64,000 nucleotides of DNA from Labilithrix sp. (lineage in GTDB: Bacteria; Myxococcota_A; Polyangia; Polyangiales; Polyangiaceae). Under the pieces are notes generated by a model. That model saw nothing but the letters and a program-made list of their open reading frames with translations. It was not told the DNA's origin and did no database searches. A program made the translations under genes and the position numbers. Location: NCBI GenBank assembly GCA_019637225.1, contig JAHBWC010000022.1:1-64000 (forward strand), given 5' to 3'. This document shows, piece by piece, positions 5,603-17,698 of this stretch (within the stretch, counting starts at the first letter, position 1; each line of letters opens with the position of its first letter).

Positions 5603-7222
5603 TCAGGACTCGACTTCGGGCGCTCGTCCCCACGCCGCCGCGAGCTTCTTCTTGAAGCCCACGCGCCGCTCGACGGTCTGTACGAAGGCCGTGATCGCCT
5701 CGCGCATCGTCTGCTCTTCGCCTGCGCCGAGGCCGCGGCCGGCGTAGTCGATCTTCTCGACGATGGCGGCGGCGTCTCTCAAGCCGACCGCATCGCAGTG
5801 GAGCGTCGCCTGTAGCTCGCTCTCGGCGCGCCGCGCGAAATCGCTCGGCGTCTCGCCGGCACTCGGCTCGATGTCGACCACGGCGAGGACGGCGAGCGCT
5901 CGGCGCCACAGGTTCATCACGCGTGCGGTCGGCGCCACGGGCCAGAGCGGGCGCTCGAGGTGCCGGAGGAGGAACGCTCGCCGGAAGGGCGGGAAGACGA
6001 CGAGCATCAGCACGAGGAGGGCCGCGACGGCCGCGAGCAGCCACATGAAGAGCTTCATCCCGAGGCCGAGCGCTTCGCCCGCGGCGTCTCCGGCGTGACT
6101 CGCATCGGGCTTGCCCAGCGGCTCGTCCGGTGGAGCGCCGTTCGATGAGCCGCCACCGCCCGACGACGCGCCTTGCCCGCCAGAGCCGCCACCCGACGCG
6201 CCTTGCCCGCTCGAGCCTCCTCCCGACGACGCGCCTTGCCCGCCCGAGCCCCCGCTCGATCCTCCACCCGACGACGCGCCTTGCCCGCCAGAGCCTCCAC
6301 CCGACGACGCACCCTGCCCGCCCGACGACGCACCCTGCCCGCCCGACGACGCACCCTGCCCGCCCGACGACGCGCCCTGGCCGCTCGATCCGCCGCCCGA
6401 CGACGACCCGCCCTGGCCACCCGAGCCACCGCCCGACGACGCGCCCTGGCCGCTCGAGCCTCCGCTCGACGATCCGCCGCTGCCGTCGTGCTCGCCGTGA
6501 GGCTCGCGTGTCCGGAAGAGGTACGGCGAGATGAGCGCCGTCGCGCCGAGCACGGCGAGCGTGAAGACGAACAGCACGGCGAAGCTGCCGCGTCCGGGAC
6601 GCGCGACCGCGACGGCGTCGTCCTGCACCGCAAGGCCCCGTGGACGCGCGACCTCCTGCCAGACGGTGAGGCCGAGCGAGTGCCGGGTCGCCAGGAAGAC
6701 GAGCATCAAGAAGACGCCGCCCGTCAGGCAGATCATCGTGAAGCCGTCCCACACCGCGTGCTTCGAGCCGCCGTGAAACGTCTCGACCGCGCCGTGGCGG
6801 TTCATCCAGACGATCGCGCCGCCGATGCAGAACGACAGCGGGTACCACGCGGCGACGACGTCGAGGCGGCTCGCGATGCCGAGGTAGCCGCCGAGCGCCG
6901 AGAACACCGCGATGACGAGGAAGAGCGCGATCGCTCCGAGCGCGACGCCGCTCAACGTGGCGCCGATGAAGAGCGCGAAGAAGAGCACGACGACCGGCAT
7001 GAGCCGGAGGCCGGACAGGCCGAGCAGGTTCCCACCGATGTGACCGGCGAGCGTCGCCGCGAAGACGCCGGCGAGGACGCCGAGGTCGCCGGGCGAGACG
7101 CCGAAGCCACCGCTGGTGAGCACGAGGCTCATCACGAGGCACATCACGCCCCACACGGAGAAGACTCCGTACGAGACGAGGACCGGCCACGATCGCCGGA
7201 GCGTCGCGCGGAAGCCGCTCAC
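5603..7222 (-). CDS. Multi-pass membrane protein with Gly/Ser/Gln linker and DUF4129-like tail
   Basis: A 539-residue protein. About seven transmembrane helices fill residues 10-290, followed by a low-complexity linker of roughly 110 residues built from GQGASSG-type repeats. A further helix (LFMWLLAAVAALLVLMLVVF) and a C-terminal soluble domain resembling DUF4129 follow (PSDFARRAESELQ...DYAGRGLGAGEEQ). The GTG start at 7222 is supported by a near-perfect ribosome site and by a GTGA overlap with the stop of the upstream DUF58 gene. MoxR-DUF58-DUF4129 operons are often linked to envelope or protease/chaperone functions; the exact role is unknown. Confidence 0.8.
   Translation of the reverse strand: MSGFRATLRRSWPVLVSYGVFSVWGVMCLVMSLVLTSGGFGVSPGDLGVLAGVFAATLAGHIGGNLLGLSGLRLMPVVVLFFALFIGATLSGVALGAIALFLVIAVFSALGGYLGIASRLDVVAAWYPLSFCIGGAIVWMNRHGAVETFHGGSKHAVWDGFTMICLTGGVFLMLVFLATRHSLGLTVWQEVARPRGLAVQDDAVAVARPGRGSFAVLFVFTLAVLGATALISPYLFRTREPHGEHDGSGGSSSGGSSGQGASSGGGSGGQGGSSSGGGSSGQGASSGGQGASSGGQGASSGGQGASSGGGSGGQGASSGGGSSGGSGGQGASSGGGSSGQGASGGGSGGQGASSGGGGSSNGAPPDEPLGKPDASHAGDAAGEALGLGMKLFMWLLAAVAALLVLMLVVFPPFRRAFLLRHLERPLWPVAPTARVMNLWRRALAVLAVVDIEPSAGETPSDFARRAESELQATLHCDAVGLRDAAAIVEKIDYAGRGLGAGEEQTMREAITAFVQTVERRVGFKKKLAAAWGRAPEVES
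6301..6372 (-). repeat. 21-bp tandem repeats coding GQGASSG
   Basis: Near-identical 21-base units (core GACGCACCCTGCCCGCCCGAC on the plus strand) occur in tandem here. The wider stretch 6160-6480 is made of diverged copies. They encode the Gly/Ser/Gln linker of the membrane protein and may vary in copy number by slippage without shifting the frame. Confidence 0.8.
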
Positions 7223-9369
7223 GCCGACCTCCTTTGACCTTGATGGACGTCGACGGCGCGCGCGACGCGCGCCGAGCCCTTGAGACCGACGAGCCGGTGC
7301 TGTCCGTTCACGATCTCGAGGCGGTAGACCGCGTCGGGCAGCGAGAGCAGCACGTTGAGCGCGTGCCTCCCCACCGCGACCGCGCGCCAGCGAAGCGCGA
7401 GCCGGTGCGCGCGCTCCTCGAGGCGGCGTTCGAGCCCCTTCATGCGCGCGAACATGCCATTCTCCTCCGCCCCGACCGGGTGCGGCAGGAAGAGGGCGCG
7501 CTTGAAGAGCTGGCCGGCCGTGAGCTTTCGCCCCGTGTCGTCGAAGTCGATCCACGTGTCGATCACTCCGCGCGGGAGCGGACCGAGCGCGTCGTCGGGA
7601 TCGTAGTAGACCCACGTGGTCTCGCGGGCGACGCGCGGGAGCGCCGGCGGCGCGAGGCGCATGGTCACGACGATCGCGTTGTCGAAGGCGACCTCCTCCG
7701 TCGCGCGCCGATCGCCCTGGCGGATCCCGAAATCGAGCACGTCCTCGATGCGGTAGTCCGCCTGCCACTCCGCGCGGGCGCCGGCGTCGAGGCCGTGCGC
7801 GTGGTTACCGCCCGCCGCCACCACCTCGGGTCGCAGCGTCCCGTCGTTCGCGCGCGCGACGAGCAAGAGCGTCACCTTCTCGCCTTGCTCGACGAGGCGC
7901 TGCGCGATCGCGAGCCACGCCTCGACGAGCGAGTCGAGCGCGTCGTCGATCACCGCGGCGTGGTCGAGCCAGTCCGCGGGCACCCAGGTGTCGAGCGCGA
8001 CGACGACGCGCTTCGCGGAGCTCTCCTTGCTGTCCGGCGTCTTGACGATCATCCGCCCGGCGCGGAGGCTCATCTCCCAGTGGATGCGGCGCGTGTCGTC
8101 GCCCGCGACGTACTCGCGGAAGCGGAAGAGGTCCTCGGTCGGGAAGCGATGCGGCCGCGAGAGGATGTCCGGCTGCTCCGTGTTCGTCGGCGGCGGCGCG
8201 ACGACCTCCGCGGGACGCACCGCGGGCAACACGCGAAGACGCGCGGTCGCGAGCGACGCCACGGTGGCGCTCGTCATGCCGAGGAGGTCCGAGAAGGCGA
8301 TCCGCAGCGGCGGGACGTCGTAGGTGCCGCGCGGCGTGCGCTTCAACAGCACCGAGAGCGCGAGGCGTTCCTCGCGCGACTTCGGCGGGATGACGTGACG
8401 CACCTCGGTCGCGAGGCGCGGCGGGAGCGTCCCCGCGAGCGTGAGGAAGAAGCCGGGCGGGACGGGCACGCCCTTCACGTCCAGGGTGTCGCGGACGACG
8501 TCGCCGGCGCGCGCGACGCCCGGCGCGTAGCGCCGATGAACGGCCGCGCCGCGCGCGAGCAGATCGTTCGAGAACCGGCGCACGATGAAGGCGCTCAAGA
8601 ACGCCGAGACCGACGTGACGAGGTAGAACGCGCTCAGCGCGAGCACGGCGATGACGCCGAGGTCCGCCCACTGGTACGCGAGCGAAAGCATCAGGAAGCC
8701 GAGGCCGGTCAGGAGCACGAGCAGCCCGCGCGGGGTCAGGATCGCCGCCGCGCGCGCGATCGCGTCGAGCCGCGTCCGGCGTGTGAGCGCGTTGGCCTTC
8801 CGCAAGAGCGCGATCTGCGCGCGCGCCTTCTTCACGGTGCCGACGAGCTGGATCAGGAAGAGCGGCGCGAGGACGAGCACCGAGAAGACGCCGAACTTGC
8901 CGGCGGTGTCCCTGACCTGACTCGTCTCGAAGAGGGTGAAGCCCCCGCTCACGACGAGGTACGGCAGGAGGAAGAGGAGGCCGACGTGGCCGACGATGCG
9001 CGCGACGGCCTCGGTCGGCTCGTAGGCGCCCTCCTCGAGCGGGTCGACGAAGAGCTTGCCGCGTCGCCACGACCACACGACCGGCAGGCCGTGCTGATCG
9101 CGCGGCGTTCCGAGCAAGAGGAGGAAGCCGTCGACGTAGCCGATGAAGCCGCCGAGGCCGCACGTCAGCATCGTCATGCCGGCGTAGATGCCGCCGACGG
9201 CGAAGCTCCCGAGGACCATGCGGTGCACGCCGAGCCAGCCGAGGAAGAACCACGCCAGGAGGACGGTCTCCTTCGCGGTCGGCGAGGTGGGCTTGTGACG
9301 CCGAGGCCGGACGTCTCCGAGCTCCGCCGCCGCGCGCGCGACGCCGGCTGTGTCGCGCGCCGGCATCAT
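7219..9369 (-). CDS. TM2-domain and DUF58 membrane protein
   Basis: A 716-residue protein. Residues about 40-95 form a TM2 domain (WFFLGWLGVHRMVLGS, then a Gly-rich turn and second helix). More helices follow around 130-230. The C-terminal half carries a DUF58 domain with the hallmark GDDTRRIHWEMSLR and a following vWA-like fold. DUF58 proteins are regular partners of MoxR ATPases. The start MMPARD overlaps the MoxR stop as ATGA, indicating translational coupling. The TM2-DUF58 fusion is unusual, since DUF58 proteins normally have two N-terminal helices only. Confidence 0.87.
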   Translation of the reverse strand: MMPARDTAGVARAAAELGDVRPRRHKPTSPTAKETVLLAWFFLGWLGVHRMVLGSFAVGGIYAGMTMLTCGLGGFIGYVDGFLLLLGTPRDQHGLPVVWSWRRGKLFVDPLEEGAYEPTEAVARIVGHVGLLFLLPYLVVSGGFTLFETSQVRDTAGKFGVFSVLVLAPLFLIQLVGTVKKARAQIALLRKANALTRRTRLDAIARAAAILTPRGLLVLLTGLGFLMLSLAYQWADLGVIAVLALSAFYLVTSVSAFLSAFIVRRFSNDLLARGAAVHRRYAPGVARAGDVVRDTLDVKGVPVPPGFFLTLAGTLPPRLATEVRHVIPPKSREERLALSVLLKRTPRGTYDVPPLRIAFSDLLGMTSATVASLATARLRVLPAVRPAEVVAPPPTNTEQPDILSRPHRFPTEDLFRFREYVAGDDTRRIHWEMSLRAGRMIVKTPDSKESSAKRVVVALDTWVPADWLDHAAVIDDALDSLVEAWLAIAQRLVEQGEKVTLLLVARANDGTLRPEVVAAGGNHAHGLDAGARAEWQADYRIEDVLDFGIRQGDRRATEEVAFDNAIVVTMRLAPPALPRVARETTWVYYDPDDALGPLPRGVIDTWIDFDDTGRKLTAGQLFKRALFLPHPVGAEENGMFARMKGLERRLEERAHRLALRWRAVAVGRHALNVLLSLPDAVYRLEIVNGQHRLVGLKGSARVARAVDVHQGQRRSA
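7227..7235 (-). promoter_or_regulatory. Strong ribosome binding site fixing a GTG start
   Basis: The minus strand reads AAAGGAGGT four bases before the GTG at 7222. This nearly full complement to the 16S rRNA tail lies inside the end of the upstream gene and decides the start of the DUF4129-like gene. Confidence 0.75.
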
Positions 9370-10442
9370 CGCTCGACGGGCACCTGCCGGACGAAGTAGT
9401 CGACGTACGCGCCGCCGCTGCGCTGGCCCGAGACGACGACGCGATGCGCGAGGACGTCGACGGCCGTGCGCTGGAGGTCGCCCGGCACGACGTGATCGCG
9501 GCCTTCGAGCATCGCGATCGCCATCGCCATGCGCAGCCACATCAAGGTCGCGCGCGGGCTCGGCGGCGTGAGGCACGCGGAGTCGGCGCGCATCGCGGTG
9601 ACGACGTTGACGGCGTGCCGCTTGACGCTCTCGGCGACGTAAATCGAGGGCAGGAGCTTCTGCCAGCCGAGGAACTCCTCGGTCCCGAGCACCGGCGAGA
9701 GCGCCTGGATGGCGACGTCCTTGCCCATGTGGACGTCGAGCATGCGCATCTCGGCGTCGGGCGGCGGGAAGCCCATCGAGATCCGGATCGAGAATCGATC
9801 GAGCTGCGCCGCCGGCAACGGGAAGGTGCCGTCGTGCTCGAGCGGGTTCATCGTCGCGAGGACGAGGAACGGCTGCGGCAGGACGTGGGTGGTGCCGTCG
9901 ACGGTCACCTGCCCCTCCGCCATGACCTCGAGCAGCGCGGCCTGCGTCTTCGGCGTCGCGCGGTTGATCTCGTCGGCGAGCAGGAGGTTCGCGAAGACCG
10001 GACCCGGCACGAACTCGAACGCCTTCTTCCGCAGGTTGAAGATGTTGTTGCCGGTGATGTCGAGCGGCAGAAGATCGGGCGTGAACTGGATTCGCTTGAA
10101 CGAGCAGTGGATCGACGCCGCGATCGATCGCGCGAGCATCGTCTTGCCGACGCCCGGCACGTCGAGCAAGAGCACGTGACCGCCCGCGCACATCGCGGCG
10201 AGGACGCGGGCGATGACGTCGGTCTTTCCGAGGATGACGCGCTCCACGTTCTGGAGCACGGCGCGGAACTGCTGACCGACGTGCGCGATGCGCTCTCGCT
10301 GGGGGTTCTGACCGGGCGCCTCGGCGTGCGCGTGGCCGGGCGTCTGCGCGTGAGGCGGCGCAGGATAGGGAGGCTGCCCCGGCGGATAGGGCGGGCCGCC
10401 CGGAGGGGGCGGATGACCGCCGTGGTTCGGAGGCTGCTGCAT
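9366..10442 (-). CDS. MoxR-family AAA+ ATPase
   Basis: A 358-residue protein. After a Pro/Gly/His-rich N-terminal extension of about 45 residues, the AAA+ core shows Walker A GVGKT (near 96-100), Walker B LLADEINR and sensor motif ATMNP, with the MoxR C-terminal lid. MoxR ATPases act as chaperones for vWA-type partners such as the DUF58 protein encoded next. The ATG at 10442 is preferred over one 33 codons upstream because that would overlap the preceding gene. The Pro-rich leader (HPPPPGGPPYPPG) is atypical for MoxR and may be an interaction segment. Confidence 0.93.
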   Translation of the reverse strand: MQQPPNHGGHPPPPGGPPYPPGQPPYPAPPHAQTPGHAHAEAPGQNPQRERIAHVGQQFRAVLQNVERVILGKTDVIARVLAAMCAGGHVLLLDVPGVGKTMLARSIAASIHCSFKRIQFTPDLLPLDITGNNIFNLRKKAFEFVPGPVFANLLLADEINRATPKTQAALLEVMAEGQVTVDGTTHVLPQPFLVLATMNPLEHDGTFPLPAAQLDRFSIRISMGFPPPDAEMRMLDVHMGKDVAIQALSPVLGTEEFLGWQKLLPSIYVAESVKRHAVNVVTAMRADSACLTPPSPRATLMWLRMAMAIAMLEGRDHVVPGDLQRTAVDVLAHRVVVSGQRSGGAYVDYFVRQVPVER

Positions 10443-10453
10443 GGTGGTCGTCG

Positions 10454-11431
10454 TTATTTCGCGGGAAAGAGGAAGAGACCGATACGCCGAAACCAGCGCT
10501 CGACGCGGTTCGAGTCGCCGAAAGAATAGAGCTCCGTCCACTCGCGGAGGCGCTCGGGATCGATCCCCCAGGCCCGAGCGAAATCGCGAATGACCCTGAG
10601 CTCGCTCTCGTCCATCTGCCCGTCGGACCAGCCCATCTGGAACATCTCCTCGAGCACGCGCTCTCGTTCGACGAGCGTGGGCGGCGGATCGATCTCGTTC
10701 GGCCGCCAGACGCGGACGTCCTCCGGCCCGAGCGGCGGCATCCCGCGTCGCTCTGCCGCGCGGACGAGCACCGCCTGGTCGTCCGCGCTCGCCTCGCCGT
10801 CCGCGGCCGCGACGGACGCGATCGCCAGGAGCTCCTCGCGGGGCCCGCCGACGCGCCGCAGCGAGGCCGGCTGCGGGTTTCGCTGCGTCGCGGGGGCCTC
10901 TTCCTCGAGTCGCATCATGATGGCCGGCTCGCCGGCGGCCGCGCCCCCTGCCCCGCCGCCCGAGAAGAGGTAATCGGCGACGTCGAAGGTCGTCTCGACG
11001 CGCTCGCCGCGGCAGAGCGCGTCGAAGACCTCACGCGGGGTCGGGAGCACGAAGTACGCGTCGAGCAGATCGCGCGCCGCGCCGAGGCCCTCTTCCCGAG
11101 CCCACGCGTCGAGCGCGAGCTCGAGGGCCTCGTGGTCGGCGAACGCGCGCGAAGCGGCGCGCTCGACGAGCGTCGCGTGGGTCCCGCAGAAGGGGCACCG
11201 GTGCGCCTCGCGCATGACCTCTTCGAGCTCCGTCCCACAACCGGGGCAACCCGCTCCCGGCGCGGCGGTCTCGACCCCGACGACCGTCCCGTCGGCGGCG
11301 TGGCCGCAGAGCCGACACCGCACCGTCTCGGGGACGCCGAGCCGGCAGCTCGCGAGCTCCGCGTCCCACGTCTCGATGCGCGTCCCCTCGACGGCGCAGG
11401 ACGGGCAATCGACGCGGACCTCGAACGTCAT
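10454..11431 (-). CDS. Zinc-ribbon protein with TerB-like C-terminal domains
   Basis: A 325-residue soluble protein. The first 95 residues contain several CxxC pairs (CPSC, CRLC, CPGC, CPFC), consistent with two zinc ribbons. A helical middle is followed by two TerB-like segments: ELLAIASVAAADGEASADDQ at about 200-219, and MGWSDGQMDESELRVIRDFA near 273-292. It is the first gene of the MoxR operon, 11 bases before the ATPase gene. A role as sensor or adaptor for the ATPase complex is inferred. No catalytic residues are recognised. Confidence 0.77.
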   Translation of the reverse strand: MTFEVRVDCPSCAVEGTRIETWDAELASCRLGVPETVRCRLCGHAADGTVVGVETAAPGAGCPGCGTELEEVMREAHRCPFCGTHATLVERAASRAFADHEALELALDAWAREEGLGAARDLLDAYFVLPTPREVFDALCRGERVETTFDVADYLFSGGGAGGAAAGEPAIMMRLEEEAPATQRNPQPASLRRVGGPREELLAIASVAAADGEASADDQAVLVRAAERRGMPPLGPEDVRVWRPNEIDPPPTLVERERVLEEMFQMGWSDGQMDESELRVIRDFARAWGIDPERLREWTELYSFGDSNRVERWFRRIGLFLFPAK

Positions 11432-11487
11432 GCCTCTCGATCATAGCCACGAAACCGCTGCGAACCACCGGCGATCGCGCCGCTGGA

Positions 11488-13062
11488 TCAGCCGATCGGA
11501 TAGCGCCGGCGCGTCTCCTGGACCGAGATCCAGTGGACCGAGGTGAGCTCGTCGAGCGCCCAGCGTCCACCATGGCGCCCGTGGCCCGACGCGCTCTCCC
11601 CGCCGAACGCCACGTGAGCCTCGTCGTTCACCGGCCAGTCGTTGACGTGCGTCATCGGGGCCTCGAGCCGCCGGGCGATGCGGGCGCCGCGCTCTCCGTC
11701 ACGCGTGAACACCGCGCTCGACAGGCCGAGCTCCGTGTCGTTCGCGATCCGGATCGCGTCCTCCTCGCCGTCGAAGCGGAGGATCGGCGCGACGGGGCCG
11801 AAGAGCTCCTCGTACGCCGCCGGCATGTCGTTGGTCACCCCCGAAAGGACGATCGGCGAGAGCACGAGGCCCGAGACTTGACCGCGAAGCAGCACGGCGG
11901 CGCCACGCGCGATGGTCGCGTCGACCTTGCGGAGGAGGTCGTCGAGCCGAGCACGGCTGATGATCGGTCCGATCGCCGTCTTCGGATCGGACGGATCGCC
12001 GACGCGGAGCGAAGCGACCCGAGGAACGAAGCGCGCGACGAAGGCGTCGTGGACCCTGGCGTCGACGAGGATGCGGTTGATCGCGAGGTCCGTCTGGCCT
12101 TGATGCAAGAACTTCCCGGCCACGGCGGCGTCGACGGCGCGATCGAGATCGGCGTCGTCGAGGACGATGAAGGGCACGTTGCCGCCGAGCTCGAGGCGCG
12201 CGCGCTTGACGTGTCGCCCGCAGAGCTCGCCGACACGCCGGCCCACCGCTTGGCTGCCGGTGAACGCAATGGCGCGCGCGAGCGCGTGCTCGACGAACGG
12301 CCCGCCGAGGTCCTCGCCCGCGCCGACGACGACGCTGAGCACTCCGGGCGGCAGGCCGGCCTCCTCGAAGACCTTCGCGATGACGAGCCCGCCCGTCACC
12401 GGCGTGTGGCTCGACGGCTTGACGACGACCGCGTTGCCGGCGGCCAGCGCCGGGCCGACCGCGCGGGTCGCGAGGTGGAGCGGGAAGCTCCACGTGCCGA
12501 TGACGCCGACCACGCCGACCGGACGACGGTAGACGCGGTTCTCCTTGCCGGGGACCGACGAGGGCAGGATCCGTCCCTCGGCGTGGAACGGATGACTCGC
12601 GTACTCGAGCAGGCCGTCGCGGAAGAGCTTCCACTCGAAGATGGCCTTCGTCCTCGTGCTGCCCGACTCCTTGATCAGCCACTCGACGATCTCCTCGCGC
12701 CGCGCCTCGGCGACACGCGCCGCACGCTCGAGCACGTCGCGCCGCTCTTGCGGCAAGGCGACGGCCCAGCGGCGCTGCGAGGCGGCGGCCGCGCGGTACG
12801 CCTCGTCGACGTCGCGCGCGTCGGCCGCGGGGATCTCGACGAGCACGTCTCCGCTGTACGGATCGTGATCCGTGAGGAGCTTGCCCGCGCGCCCCCGACG
12901 CCAGCTGCCGGCGAGGGGCATGCGCTCGAAGCCGTCGAAGCGCGCGGGCGCATCGAGCGCGCCGTCCAGCGGTACGCTCGGCGTCTCGTGTCCAACGTGC
13001 ATGAGCACCTCCTCGCGCGCGACGTCCTCGGTCAGCGTGGGGCCCGGCCGCGGCTCCTGCAA
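11488..13062 (-). CDS. Aldehyde dehydrogenase-like protein lacking the catalytic cysteine
   Basis: A 524-residue member of the aldehyde dehydrogenase superfamily, closest in feel to benzaldehyde/vanillin dehydrogenases. The cofactor region (VGVIGTWSFPLHLA), the general-base motif (LELGGN) and the FGPVAPI motif are present. The nucleophile motif, normally GQxC in HQGQICxAINR, reads HQGQTDLAINR. Asp325, codon GAC at 12088-12090, replaces the catalytic Cys. The only nearby Cys (in GELCGRH) is not at the active site. The frame is otherwise intact, so it may be a pseudoenzyme, have a changed reaction, or reflect a sequencing error. The first 36 residues extend beyond the usual start; a second Met at residue 21 is possible. 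Confidence 0.88.
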   Translation of the reverse strand: MQEPRPGPTLTEDVAREEVLMHVGHETPSVPLDGALDAPARFDGFERMPLAGSWRRGRAGKLLTDHDPYSGDVLVEIPAADARDVDEAYRAAAASQRRWAVALPQERRDVLERAARVAEARREEIVEWLIKESGSTRTKAIFEWKLFRDGLLEYASHPFHAEGRILPSSVPGKENRVYRRPVGVVGVIGTWSFPLHLATRAVGPALAAGNAVVVKPSSHTPVTGGLVIAKVFEEAGLPPGVLSVVVGAGEDLGGPFVEHALARAIAFTGSQAVGRRVGELCGRHVKRARLELGGNVPFIVLDDADLDRAVDAAVAGKFLHQGQTDLAINRILVDARVHDAFVARFVPRVASLRVGDPSDPKTAIGPIISRARLDDLLRKVDATIARGAAVLLRGQVSGLVLSPIVLSGVTNDMPAAYEELFGPVAPILRFDGEEDAIRIANDTELGLSSAVFTRDGERGARIARRLEAPMTHVNDWPVNDEAHVAFGGESASGHGRHGGRWALDELTSVHWISVQETRRRYPIG

Positions 13063-13131
13063 TGAGACGACCGAGCGCGCGACGAGGCTTCGCGGCCGCG
13101 CGGTCGGCGACGCTCCTTGCCGCGCCTGGCG

Positions 13132-14439
13132 TCACCCCGGCGCGCCGAGCGGGAGCGTGACGACCAGGTGCGTCCCACCGTCGGACGACCACGACGCCTC
13201 GCCTCCGAGGAGGTGGGCGCGCTTGACGATGTTCGAGAGCCCGCCGCGCGACGCCTCGAGCGCACCGTCCGGCATGCCCTCGCCGTCGTCGGAGATGCGG
13301 ACGACGACGCGAGCGCCGCGCTCGAGCTCGACGCGCACGACCTTCGCCCGAGCGTGGCGGACGGCGTTGCGCACGCCCTCCTGCACGATGCGCAAGACGT
13401 GGATCCGGACGTCGACCGGCACGTCGGCGGCGGCCTCGTCGTCGTGGAACACGATCTCGCAGCGGAGCGAGCCGGCGCAGAGCCGCGTGACCCGCGTGCG
13501 GAGCTCGGAGCAGAGCTCGTCCCACGTCCCGCCCGCGACGCGCAGCGCGAAGACGGTCGCGCGGAGCTCGTCGAGGCTGCTCCGCACGTCGCTCACGAGA
13601 TCGTCGACGATGGACGTCGCTTCGCCGTTTCCTGCCGCGGCGACGGCCTCCTTCAGCTCGCGCGCGCGCCACAAGAGCGTCGAGAGATCGGCCGCGACGC
13701 CGTCGTGGAGATCGCGCGCGATGCGATCGCGCTCGCGCTCGACGAGCAAGCCCTCGAGCCGCGCGCGGAGGGCGCGTCGCTCGGCTTCGCCACGGAGCCG
13801 GTGCCTCGCGGACGCGGCGAAGGCGTAGATGCACACGGCGCCGAGGACGCCGACGCTCGCCACGACCGCCACGTCGGTGAAGGCGCCTCGAACCGCGAAC
13901 GCGACCGCCAGGACGGAGGTCGCGACGCCGAACAAGGTCATCTGGATCCTGACGTCGCGCGGGTTGTTCCACGAGTCCGCGACGAAGAGGAGGAAGTACA
14001 GCCAGAAGACGCTGCTCGCCGAGCCGGAGAAGTAGATGAGAGCGACGCCACAGGAGACCGAGCACACCGACTCGACGTGCTCGGCGACGCGGTACCACCG
14101 GCCGCGCCCGCCGACCCTGCCGAACGCGATCGCGGCGTGGACGATCGACAGCGCCGAGATCGCCGCGAACGGCAGCGTCGTCTCCAGCCCGACGCCGAGC
14201 ATCCGACGCGCCGGAAGCCACGCGGGCAGCAGCGCCACGCCGGCCGCGAGCGCGACGAGCAGCGCCGTCGACGTGAGGCTGCGCATCCCGCGGCGGCCCT
14301 CCACGTAGTGCTCGGTCATCGCCCGATCGAGCTCGACGTCGATCTCCGCGGGCGAGACGGCCCCGGCGGGCGAGCTGATCTTCGCGGGAGGGATCGCGTG
14401 CGGATCGTTGCTCGTCGGGACAGCCAACGCCCGGTCCAT
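13132..14439 (-). CDS. NarL-type sensor histidine kinase
   Basis: A 435-residue membrane kinase. About five to six hydrophobic helices lie between residues 50 and 215 with only short loops, so it probably senses within the membrane. The HisKA_3 dimerisation box is ERDRIARDLHDGVAADLS with phospho-acceptor His245. The HATPase domain shows the N-box (IVQEGVRNAVRHA) and G-box (DDGEGMP), then GLSNIVKRAHLLGG. Its partner regulator is not adjacent. It lies 69 bases after the dehydrogenase start and 44 bases from the LysR stop, all on one strand. The ATG at 14439 follows a stretch shared with no other gene. Confidence 0.87.
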   Translation of the reverse strand: MDRALAVPTSNDPHAIPPAKISSPAGAVSPAEIDVELDRAMTEHYVEGRRGMRSLTSTALLVALAAGVALLPAWLPARRMLGVGLETTLPFAAISALSIVHAAIAFGRVGGRGRWYRVAEHVESVCSVSCGVALIYFSGSASSVFWLYFLLFVADSWNNPRDVRIQMTLFGVATSVLAVAFAVRGAFTDVAVVASVGVLGAVCIYAFAASARHRLRGEAERRALRARLEGLLVERERDRIARDLHDGVAADLSTLLWRARELKEAVAAAGNGEATSIVDDLVSDVRSSLDELRATVFALRVAGGTWDELCSELRTRVTRLCAGSLRCEIVFHDDEAAADVPVDVRIHVLRIVQEGVRNAVRHARAKVVRVELERGARVVVRISDDGEGMPDGALEASRGGLSNIVKRAHLLGGEASWSSDGGTHLVVTLPLGAPG

Positions 14440-14483
14440 AACATCGGAGAGCGGACGGCGGATAGCCCCGCTCCGGCGAGCGG

Positions 14484-15374
14484 TCACTTCGCGATCGCGG
14501 CCTCGAAGCTCTTCACGAGGTGCGCTCGGAACGCCGAGACTCGACGCGGCGTCGTCCGGTGCGACGGGACGACGAGGTACACGTAGGCGCCGGAGGGCGG
14601 AGCCTCGTTCCTGAGCACGCGCACGAGGACGCCTTCGCGCAGGAGCGGCTCGGCGAAGATGTTCCCGAGCGGCCCGATGCCGACGCCGCGACGGATGAGC
14701 TCGCGGAGGACGAGGTAGTCGTCCACGACGACGCGCCGGTGCGGACGGCTGCGTCGCCGCTCGTGCGCGTCCCGCGGAGCGAACGAGAGCCAGTCGTGCC
14801 CGTCGGCGCCCACGGCCTCGGGCTCCCCCTTTCGCCCCAGGTACTCGGGCGATGCGTAGTACCCCACGCGCACCGCGCCGATGCGTCGCGCGACCATGCG
14901 TGAGTCCTGAAGCGGACCACCCGCGACGCGAAGGGCGATGTCGATGTCGTGAGCGAGCAGATCGAGGCGCTCGTTCGACAGACGGAGATCGAAGCTCACG
15001 TCGGGATGACGCCGGCAGAACTGCTCGATGACACCGGCGAGGACGCTCACGCCCAGCGCGGCGGGCGCCGTCAGCCGGATCACTCCCGTGAGCGCGGACT
15101 CCCGGTCGGGGAGCTCGGTCACCAGCGTGCGGAGGGCCTGCACGGGCCCGCTCGCTCGGGCGTAGAGCTCGCGCCCCGTGGCGCTGAGCGCGACGTGATG
15201 GGTGCTCCGCCGGACCAGCTCGACCCCGGCGATCTCCTCCAGGCGGGCGATCCTCCGGCTGACGGTGCCCTTCGTGATCCCGAGGCGAAGCGCCGCCTTC
15301 GAGAAGCTCAGCGCCTCGGCCACGGCGACGAACGTGACCGCGAGATCCGGGGCGATCTCTTGCGTTGCATTCAT
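14484..15374 (-). CDS. LysR-family transcriptional regulator
   Basis: A 296-residue protein. The N-terminal winged helix-turn-helix spans about residues 10-68 (SFSKAALRLGITKGTVSRRIARLE), followed by the LysR substrate-binding domain (GVIRLTAPAALGVSVLAG). Length and layout are typical of the CrgA/AaeR-like group. It is divergent from the cytochrome lipoprotein at 15425, and a perfect palindrome overlaps its own start codon, suggesting self-repression. The effector is unknown. Confidence 0.93.
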   Translation of the reverse strand: MNATQEIAPDLAVTFVAVAEALSFSKAALRLGITKGTVSRRIARLEEIAGVELVRRSTHHVALSATGRELYARASGPVQALRTLVTELPDRESALTGVIRLTAPAALGVSVLAGVIEQFCRRHPDVSFDLRLSNERLDLLAHDIDIALRVAGGPLQDSRMVARRIGAVRVGYYASPEYLGRKGEPEAVGADGHDWLSFAPRDAHERRRSRPHRRVVVDDYLVLRELIRRGVGIGPLGNIFAEPLLREGVLVRVLRNEAPPSGAYVYLVVPSHRTTPRRVSAFRAHLVKSFEAAIAK

Positions 15375-15379
15375 GCAAC
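15364..15379. promoter_or_regulatory. Palindromic candidate operator at LysR start
   Basis: GTTGCAT-TC-ATGCAAC is a perfect 7+7 inverted repeat whose right half contains the LysR start codon (CAT at 15372-15374 on the plus strand). Its position between divergent genes fits a LysR binding site, although the classic T-N11-A spacing is not met. Confidence 0.5.
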
Positions 15380-15424
15380 ACCATGTATCGCTATCGACAA
15401 CTCCACGCCATCCCGAGCGGGTTC

Positions 15425-15760
15425 ATGGTGGAGGACATGAAGTCCTCGTTCCCCCTCGCGGGTCTCCTCCTCCTCGCGGCGTGCTTCCCGAAGACCGTCG
15501 ACACACCGCCCACGCTCGCGCCGGAGCAGATCGCGTCGGCCGGCAGTCGCGAGGCGGCGGCGACCCCGACGGCGCTCGCTCGTGGACGTGAGGTCTTTGC
15601 CGCCAAGTGCAACGGCTGTCACGGCTACCCCGCCGCCGACGCCGTCTCCGAAGCGAAGTGGCCCAAGGTGATGCGCGCCATGGGCGAGAAGTCGGACCTC
15701 ACGCCCGACGAGTCGCACGACGCGCTCCGCTTCATCCTGGCCGCACGCACCCGGCCGTGA
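15425..15760 (+). CDS. Small c-type cytochrome lipoprotein
   Basis: A protein of about 111 residues. A short signal peptide ends in the lipobox LLAAC, and a single haem-binding motif CNGCH lies near the middle, followed by Met-containing segments (MRAMGEKS) that could supply the axial ligand. It would be anchored in the envelope and carry one electron. Two ATGs are possible, 15425 and 15437. The second gives the cleaner signal MKSSFPLAG but has GGAGG only two bases away. It is divergent from the LysR gene and may be its target. Confidence 0.8.
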   Translation: MVEDMKSSFPLAGLLLLAACFPKTVDTPPTLAPEQIASAGSREAAATPTALARGREVFAAKCNGCHGYPAADAVSEAKWPKVMRAMGEKSDLTPDESHDALRFILAARTRP

Positions 15761-15942
15761 GTCGTCGACCCGCGCGTGCCGCCGCTCGGCCGGCGACGTC
15801 CGTGCCTCCGGCGATCTCACCCGCCACCCGAGCACCCCGGTCGCGCTGGCAGCCGCTGGCTCAGCACGGCACAGCCTCCTCCGCGTCTTCGCCGTGATCT
15901 GGATAGGTTGCGCGAGGCACGCGCGTTGCTCCTCGAGCCTCC

Positions 15943-17232
15943 ATGCGCCTCGTCCTCGGAGTCCTCGCGTTCACCTGTCTCTCGGCCGTTGCCTGCAGCG
16001 GTGGTAGCAGCCAAGGCATCGGCGGGAGCAGCGGCGGCAGCCCGACGACCCCGCCCGAGACCTGCGCCGACGGCTCGACGCCGGCACCCGAGCCGCCCGC
16101 GCCCACGTCGATCGACGGCACGGGCCCCCTCACTGGCGACGGCGAGGTCCGCGGAAGCGCACCGGTGCGCCCCGGAGGCTGCGCGGACGAGGGCGAGAGG
16201 GCCGCGGCCCCCGAGGCGAGCGGCTCGGCCGGCGCGCCCTCCGGCAGCAGCAGCAGCGGCGGGAGCAGCGGCTCGAGCGGCTCGGGCGGCGACGCGACCA
16301 GCAGCGGCGGCGCGACCAGCGGCGGCGGCGGCGCGACCAACGTGGGAGCGGGCATCCTCACCGCCGGCGCGTGGGACGACAACCGCAACTTCCAGCGCTT
16401 CCTCTCGTACCGCGAGCAGGTGTTCCAGGAGAACCTGCCGGGCCTCCTCCCGATCGACGTCGCCGAGCACCAGGCCGCCAACGCCGCGGCGCAGCCGGGC
16501 GCGAAGCAGAAGCTCGACGTGTCGCTCGTCATCGACACGACGGGCAGCATGGGAGACGAGATCGCGTACCTGCAGAAGGAGTTCGACGCCCTCGCCGCCA
16601 CGATCCAGGCGAAGTTCCCCGGCGCAGAGCAGCGCTGGTCGCTCGTCGTCTACAAGGACGACACCGACGACTACGTCGTTCGCTGGTACGACTTCCGCGC
16701 GAACACGGGCGAGTTTCGCGCCAAGCTCGCGGCGCAGTCCGCGGGCGGCGGTGGAGACTTCCCCGAGGCCGCCGATCGGGCGGTCGACGTCGGAACACGG
16801 CTCTCGTGGCGCACGGACGCGAACGTCGCGCGCCTGATGTTCTGGGTCGCCGACGCTCCGCACCACGCGGGCACCGAGCAGAAGCTCGCCAACGCGATCC
16901 GCTCCGCACGCAACAAGGGGATCCACATCTACCCCGTCGCCTCGAGCGGCATCGACGAGCTCACCGAGCTGTCGATGCGCTCGGCCGCGCAGATCACCGG
17001 CGGGCGCTACCTGTTCCTCACCGACGACTCCGGCGTCGGCGGCGCCCACAAGGAGCCGAAGATCCCCTGCTTCTTCGTCACGAAGCTCGACAAGGCGATC
17101 CTCCGCATGGTCGACGTCGAGATGACCGGCGCCTACCGCGAGCCGGAGGCGGCCGACGTCCTCCGCACGGGCGGCAATCCGCAGAGCGGCGTCTGCCAGC
17201 TCGAGGGCGGACAGCAGGCGACGATCTACTAG
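15943..17232 (+). CDS. vWA-domain lipoprotein with Ser/Gly linker
   Basis: A 429-residue protein. The signal peptide ends in the lipobox SAVAC. A long low-complexity Gly/Ser/Ala linker (about 20-135) follows, then a linker helix and a vWA domain from about 185. The metal site is DTTGS (VIDTTGSMGDE), with ADAPHH in place of the usual TDG. The C-terminus has a short Cys-containing tail. The gene is isolated by 182 bases upstream and 127 downstream. It is similar in design to the vWA lipoproteins at 3300 and 47240 but not close in sequence. A role in surface adhesion or sensing is inferred. Confidence 0.87.
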   Translation: MRLVLGVLAFTCLSAVACSGGSSQGIGGSSGGSPTTPPETCADGSTPAPEPPAPTSIDGTGPLTGDGEVRGSAPVRPGGCADEGERAAAPEASGSAGAPSGSSSSGGSSGSSGSGGDATSSGGATSGGGGATNVGAGILTAGAWDDNRNFQRFLSYREQVFQENLPGLLPIDVAEHQAANAAAQPGAKQKLDVSLVIDTTGSMGDEIAYLQKEFDALAATIQAKFPGAEQRWSLVVYKDDTDDYVVRWYDFRANTGEFRAKLAAQSAGGGGDFPEAADRAVDVGTRLSWRTDANVARLMFWVADAPHHAGTEQKLANAIRSARNKGIHIYPVASSGIDELTELSMRSAAQITGGRYLFLTDDSGVGGAHKEPKIPCFFVTKLDKAILRMVDVEMTGAYREPEAADVLRTGGNPQSGVCQLEGGQQATIY

Positions 17233-17344
17233 GTCCCCGGACGCCTCGACGTAGGCCGGTTCGTCGCTGCCGCACGGCAGGCGAGGCGATCTCGCCCGCG
17301 CTGCTCGACGCCGCGCGTCTGCTCTTGCGCCGCCTGCGCGCTGG

Positions 17345-17374
17345 GCCTATCGTAACCAAATGGTTACGATAGGC
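17345..17374. promoter_or_regulatory. 30-nt palindromic operator over ArsR start codon
   Basis: Two perfect 14-nt arms, GCCTATCGTAACCA and TGGTTACGATAGGC, flank AA. The ATG of the ArsR-family gene (17360-17362) lies inside the second half. Binding here would block both transcription and translation, so autoregulation is likely. Confidence 0.75.
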
Positions 17375-17698
17375 GCGGAGCGAAGTGCGTTCGAGGCGAT
17401 CGCGGACCCCACCCGACGGAAGATCCTCGATCTCGTGCGTGCGCGAGAGATGCGGGCGGGCGATCTCGCGGCGCGCTTCACCGTGAGTCGCCCCGCGATC
17501 GCGAAGCACGTGCGCGTCCTCCGCGAGGCCGGGCTCCTGCGGGAGCGCCGAGAGGCGACGCAGCGCTTCTACACACTCGAGCCGAAGGCGCTCGAGAGCG
17601 TCGACCGTTGGCTGGCCCCGTACCGCCTTTTCTGGGCGTCACGGCTCATGGATCTCAAACATGTCGTCGAAGAGGCGGCAAAGACGAGGACGAAATGA
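17360..17698 (+). CDS. ArsR-family transcriptional regulator
   Basis: A 112-residue winged-helix protein. FEAIADPTRRKILDLV begins the helix-turn-helix, with recognition helix near SRPAIAKHVRVLREAGL. It has no Cys metal site, and belongs to the group usually paired with SRPBCC/AHSA1 proteins rather than metal sensors. The stop overlaps the next start as ATGA, so the two are made together. Its start codon sits within a 30-nt palindrome. Confidence 0.93.
   Translation: MVTIGAERSAFEAIADPTRRKILDLVRAREMRAGDLAARFTVSRPAIAKHVRVLREAGLLRERREATQRFYTLEPKALESVDRWLAPYRLFWASRLMDLKHVVEEAAKTRTK

Follow-up and report, generated by a model that had tools for sequence, protein, structure and literature searches.

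The catalytic roles of the Cys, Asn and Glu residues of aldehyde dehydrogenases (ALDHs) have been described (PMC12718228, PMC10650815), and human ALDH16A1, from which the catalytic triad is missing, is considered a pseudoenzyme (PMC10650815, PMC8160307). The nearest solved relatives of the protein considered here are 4-hydroxybenzaldehyde dehydrogenases (E = 8.5e-163): PHBDD (PDB 9jw2/9jem) and the Klebsiella ALDH (8zcx/9j0w) share 50-55% identity with it over the full length, and agree with it in fold (TM to query 0.87-0.94), cofactor and general-base residues. These enzymes carry the motifs PWN and GQIC, whereas our protein carries TWS and GQTD. To our knowledge, the catalytic Cys is taken to be invariant among active ALDHs, the textbook exception being eukaryotic ALDH16. 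By best identity and tree placement, the protein belongs to the benzaldehyde/4-hydroxybenzaldehyde dehydrogenase subfamily; its gene lies in the window, by which we mean the whole 64,000-nucleotide stretch of Labilithrix sp. DNA that was analysed, and the source assembly comprises 8.2 Mb in 182 contigs and is 83% complete. The gene and its putative ribosome-binding site are the following.

11488-13002, minus strand: ALDH-family gene (open reading frame list; Pfam PF00171, Aldedh, E = 5.4e-145, covering profile positions 1-461 of 461; homologues start at about residue 20 counted from the ATG)
13008-13014, minus strand: Shine-Dalgarno-like GAGGAGG, 5 nt before the ATG at 13002 (read from the sequence)

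The product has 504 aa, from the ATG at 13002 to the stop codon at 11488-11490, and the reading frame could be extended upstream to a TTG at 13062, giving 524 aa (11488-13062, minus strand). Judging from the GAGGAGG upstream and the homologue starts nearby, the ATG appears to be the better start; the aspartate numbered 325 in the earlier note, a number that is correct from the TTG, is therefore called Asp305 here. The frame is unbroken: neither a stop nor a frameshift interrupts its 504 codons, and GC3 (0.911) is similar to that of the neighbouring genes (0.89). The residues that matter for the argument are listed below, with the residue expected at each position.

12088-12090, minus strand: GAC codon, Asp305, in place of the catalytic Cys302 (ALDH2 numbering); Cys in 80 of 80 relatives
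12487-12489, minus strand: AGC codon, Ser172, where the oxyanion Asn169 (ALDH2 numbering) is expected; Asn in 79 of 80 relatives, Asp in L073
12493-12495, minus strand: ACG codon, Thr170; the Pro of the PWN motif expected here is otherwise invariant (relatives' alignment)
12250-12252, minus strand: Gln251, where the FTGST cofactor motif has a near-invariant Thr (relatives' alignment)
11656-11658, minus strand: Pro449, in place of an invariant Gly (relatives' alignment)
11593-11595, minus strand: Ser470, in place of the invariant Lys of the FGGEKNSG motif (relatives' alignment)
12418-12420, minus strand: Lys195, equivalent of cofactor Lys192, kept (relatives' alignment)
12190-12192, minus strand: Glu271, equivalent of the general base Glu268 (ELGG), kept (relatives' alignment)
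11806-11808, minus strand: Glu399, equivalent of cofactor-ribose Glu399 (EELFGP), kept (relatives' alignment)
12220-12222, minus strand: Cys261, with no other Cys in the protein, close to where a predicted helix (251-263) ends

The most striking of these changes concerns the nucleophile. The plus strand reads GTC at 12088-12090, which gives GAC in the minus-strand frame, within the motif FLHQGQ-T-D-LAINR, and the surrounding block FLHQGQTDLAINR aligns without gaps to FLHQGQICMAINR of the solved 4-hydroxybenzaldehyde dehydrogenases. The relatives are homologous loci at 50-65% identity, taken as one genome per species, and every one of the 80 has Cys in the Asp305 column; the same holds for the 12 further ALDHs encoded by this genome. 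The replacement of GQxC by GQTD was thus correctly read in the earlier note, and the mis-assigned alignment that it had considered as a way of being wrong is ruled out by the ungapped block and by the Cys in that column of all relatives; Asp is not conserved among them. Its remark that no other Cys lies nearby holds in the sequence, Cys261 being the sole one remaining. A further ALDH homologue of this genome, L010 (G000:C104:25602-26933), aligns with EMEG for ELGG and with a gap following the cofactor Lys, and is possibly another odd ALDH.

The loss of the catalytic apparatus is more complete than first described. The sequence around the nucleophile had been called otherwise well conserved; this stands for Lys195, Glu271 and Glu399, and the general-base region was rightly said to be kept, but the oxyanion Asn has become Ser172 and the invariant Pro two positions ahead of it has become Thr170, so that ISPWNFPLH of the relatives reads IGTWSFPLH. 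Four of the 90 strictly invariant columns, defined on 38 thinned relatives, differ in the protein (P170T, C305D, G449P and K470S), a count exceeding that of nearly all relatives. One of the latter, L073:6001-7497 (Myxococcales UBA5297), keeps its Cys, has Asp at the oxyanion position (LTPWDFPFH) and shows unusual residues at further conserved sites. Among the residues expected of an active ALDH, the equivalents of Glu268, Lys192 and Glu399 are present and those of Cys302 and Asn169 are absent. Since both the nucleophile and the residue stabilising the thiohemiacetal oxyanion are lost, the established ALDH mechanism is ruled out, an exclusion founded on established knowledge of the family, and it is all but certain that the protein does not function as an aldehyde dehydrogenase. 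The claim that it cannot use the thiohemiacetal route is thereby strengthened. NAD(P) binding may also be impaired, because Thr251Gln and Lys470Ser touch conserved motifs of the active site and cofactor side.

We propose, with a confidence slightly above even, that this intact gene of the benzaldehyde-dehydrogenase subfamily encodes a dehydrogenase-dead protein (C305D, N172S) that has been kept as a non-catalytic pseudoenzyme. In such a scenario, aldehyde oxidation by the ALDH mechanism would be impossible without the nucleophile and the oxyanion residue, the protein would probably still fold as an ALDH subunit and perhaps bind NAD(P), or perhaps an aromatic ligand, and it would be retained as a binding, scaffold or sensor protein. 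The AlphaFold model is consistent with a preserved fold (pLDDT 87; TM 0.93-0.94 to 4-hydroxybenzaldehyde dehydrogenase). Its confidence is low at 301-310 and 468-475; these dips are not taken as damage to the active site, because the control model of the Cys-bearing relative L017 shows equivalent ones. That relative (Myxococcales bacterium RYN_365, JAQBQE010000009.1) is the sister of our protein in the tree (64% identity, support 100/98) and retains the Cys, Asn, Pro and Lys, whereas our protein has changed at all four. Of the three readings suggested in the earlier note, the pseudoenzyme is the best single one, on one Asp-form sequence, and we found no positive support for a regulator or for another reaction.

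The main rival is early gene decay, in which an acquired gene lost its use and the catalytic residues were by chance mutated first, the frame being still whole; we regard it as a serious but clearly less probable explanation. It is favoured by the number of invariant columns changed and by the slightly more radical substitutions than in L017. The distribution of the changes argues against it. Among columns conserved at ≥90%, 17 lie no more than two residues from a catalytic one (our definition of near), and the protein has changed at 5 of them; of the other 150 it has changed at 11 (Fisher p = 0.013; p = 0.04 without Cys305 itself, which was dropped since it had chosen the case). In L017 the corresponding figures are 0 of 16 and 10 of 149, and in 32 pooled relatives the change rate is 0.9% near catalytic residues and 3.7% elsewhere. 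The statistical support is modest: among the three radii and two thresholds tried, only the two-residue radius with the 90% threshold fell below 0.05. The figures suggest that protection has lapsed at the catalytic centre and that constraint on the remainder equals that in the working-looking sister, whereas uniform decay predicts an even loss. The terminal branches are also similar (0.46 for our protein and 0.38 for L017), and together with the intact frame, the ribosome-binding site, the GC3 and the constraint pattern they speak for maintenance of the protein and against uniform decay. The catalytic residues may have been lost only after most of the branch to L017 had elapsed. Since the NG86 dS (0.82) is unreliable at a GC3 of 0.9, only identities by codon position were used for the two genes (73, 80 and 56% at positions 1, 2 and 3).

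The locus bears on the same question, and decay draws some support from it.

11459-13128, no strand: interval without DNA similarity to the compared congener regions, with only the ALDH gene inside (blastn of window 7000-17499)

The flanking blocks are conserved up to 11458 and from 13129, the TerB-MoxR-DUF58 block and the histidine-kinase block having 77-92% DNA identity in congeners, where the ALDH gene is absent from the corresponding locus. One congener, G004, has both blocks; there each lies on a contig of its own, and another gene follows the kinase. Because similarity ends at these borders and the blocks are separated in G004, the gene is taken to sit in a rearranged, lineage-specific interval, around which only short imperfect repeats were found. 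A close subfamily member is present in only one of 11 congeners (L014, the same gene as L047; 57% identity), and it branches elsewhere in the tree with good support. It is likely that the gene was acquired horizontally, probably as a single gene at this rearranged locus, or else it was lost by the congeners. In L017 (L017:5926-10578) the ALDH is followed by genes which we take, from reading their sequences, to encode a putative aldo/keto reductase, a quinone-reductase-like protein and an OYE-like flavoprotein. The aldo/keto reductase and the quinone-reductase-like protein also have homologues near the ALDH of L047, and these shared neighbours may represent a conserved aromatic-aldehyde module. 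Our gene is a singleton without either of these two neighbours, two points that count in favour of decay, and no close homologues of the L017 neighbours were found in the assembly (best 37% for the aldo/keto reductase and 33% for the quinone-reductase-like protein). Upstream of the ALDH gene and on the same strand, window 13132-15374 holds a LysR regulator and a histidine kinase (HisKA_3), next to which no response regulator was seen. The kinase is conserved in congeners that do not have the ALDH, and its homologue in a congener, L118 (G009:C75:170367-171581), contains one in-frame TGA.

Protein searches of the genomes of the family, class and phylum returned no orthologue above 65% identity. 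A GQTDLAI-like DNA pattern in 184 genomes of the order and a looser HQGQxD in 379 genomes of the phylum together gave 16 matches outside the window locus, none of them in an ALDH, and thus no second Asp lineage was found among the Myxococcota genomes searched. For want of an Asp-form relative in these genomes, a maintained pseudoenzyme and early decay are not fully separable. Within the assembly, 83% complete as it is, there is no active paralogue of the subfamily (next best 35% identity), and no partner protein is evident.

It could also be hypothesised that the lineage swapped a thiol for a carboxylate, Asp305 being functionally essential either in a different reaction or in a regulator that binds NAD(P) or an aromatic ligand; we consider this broader proposition improbable. 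Its enzymatic form, in which Asp305 and Glu271 would act as a carboxylate pair on NAD(P) or an aromatic ligand, for example in hydrolysis or in redox chemistry of a hydrated substrate, is more improbable still. The acid stands exactly at the nucleophile site, Glu271, Lys195 and Glu399 are kept, and the changes are concentrated on the active site, all of which would suit new chemistry; yet the oxyanion Asn has been lost as well, there is no conserved Asp clade, the gene context suggests no reaction, and two near carboxylates could equally be drift.

That the Asp codon is a sequencing or assembly error, and the enzyme in truth active, is highly unlikely. The earlier note had held that orthologues with Cys, together with poor read support, would undo its finding; Cys is indeed present in all relatives and the assembly is fragmented, but TGC to GAC requires two base changes in one codon, and N172S, P170T, T251Q, G449P and K470S co-occur in an unbroken frame. 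Equally far-fetched is a relocated nucleophile that keeps the protein active, whether Cys261, which within the pair with L017 is specific to our protein but lies near a helix end before the ELGG strand, or a Ser or Thr such as Ser172 or Thr304, the latter adjoining Asp305 but being no substitute, because Thr is common in that column in relatives that also have Cys (Nitrosomonas).

We return to the maintained pseudoenzyme and to its place among known proteins. No report of a Cys to Asp replacement in the benzaldehyde-dehydrogenase subfamily was found in the open-access literature. A single-domain bacterial ALDH that has lost Cys and Asn and kept the cofactor residues and Glu would offer a compact test system for a non-catalytic ALDH fold, and it calls for caution in automatic annotation, as Pfam scores the protein as a normal aldehyde dehydrogenase. 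The omega-crystallins of cephalopods are ALDH-fold proteins recruited to non-catalytic roles, but they differ from our protein in both ALDH subfamily and role. With ALDH16A1 it shares the absence of the catalytic Cys and Asn; membership of ALDH16 is nevertheless ruled out, since Pfam detects a single ALDH domain in the 504 aa and no second, ALDH-like domain at the C-terminus. ALDH16A1 has also lost the Glu, which our protein retains along with the cofactor residues, and it is a form conserved across species with an extra C-terminal domain, whereas the protein described here is a one-domain singleton of a bacterial aromatic-aldehyde subfamily.
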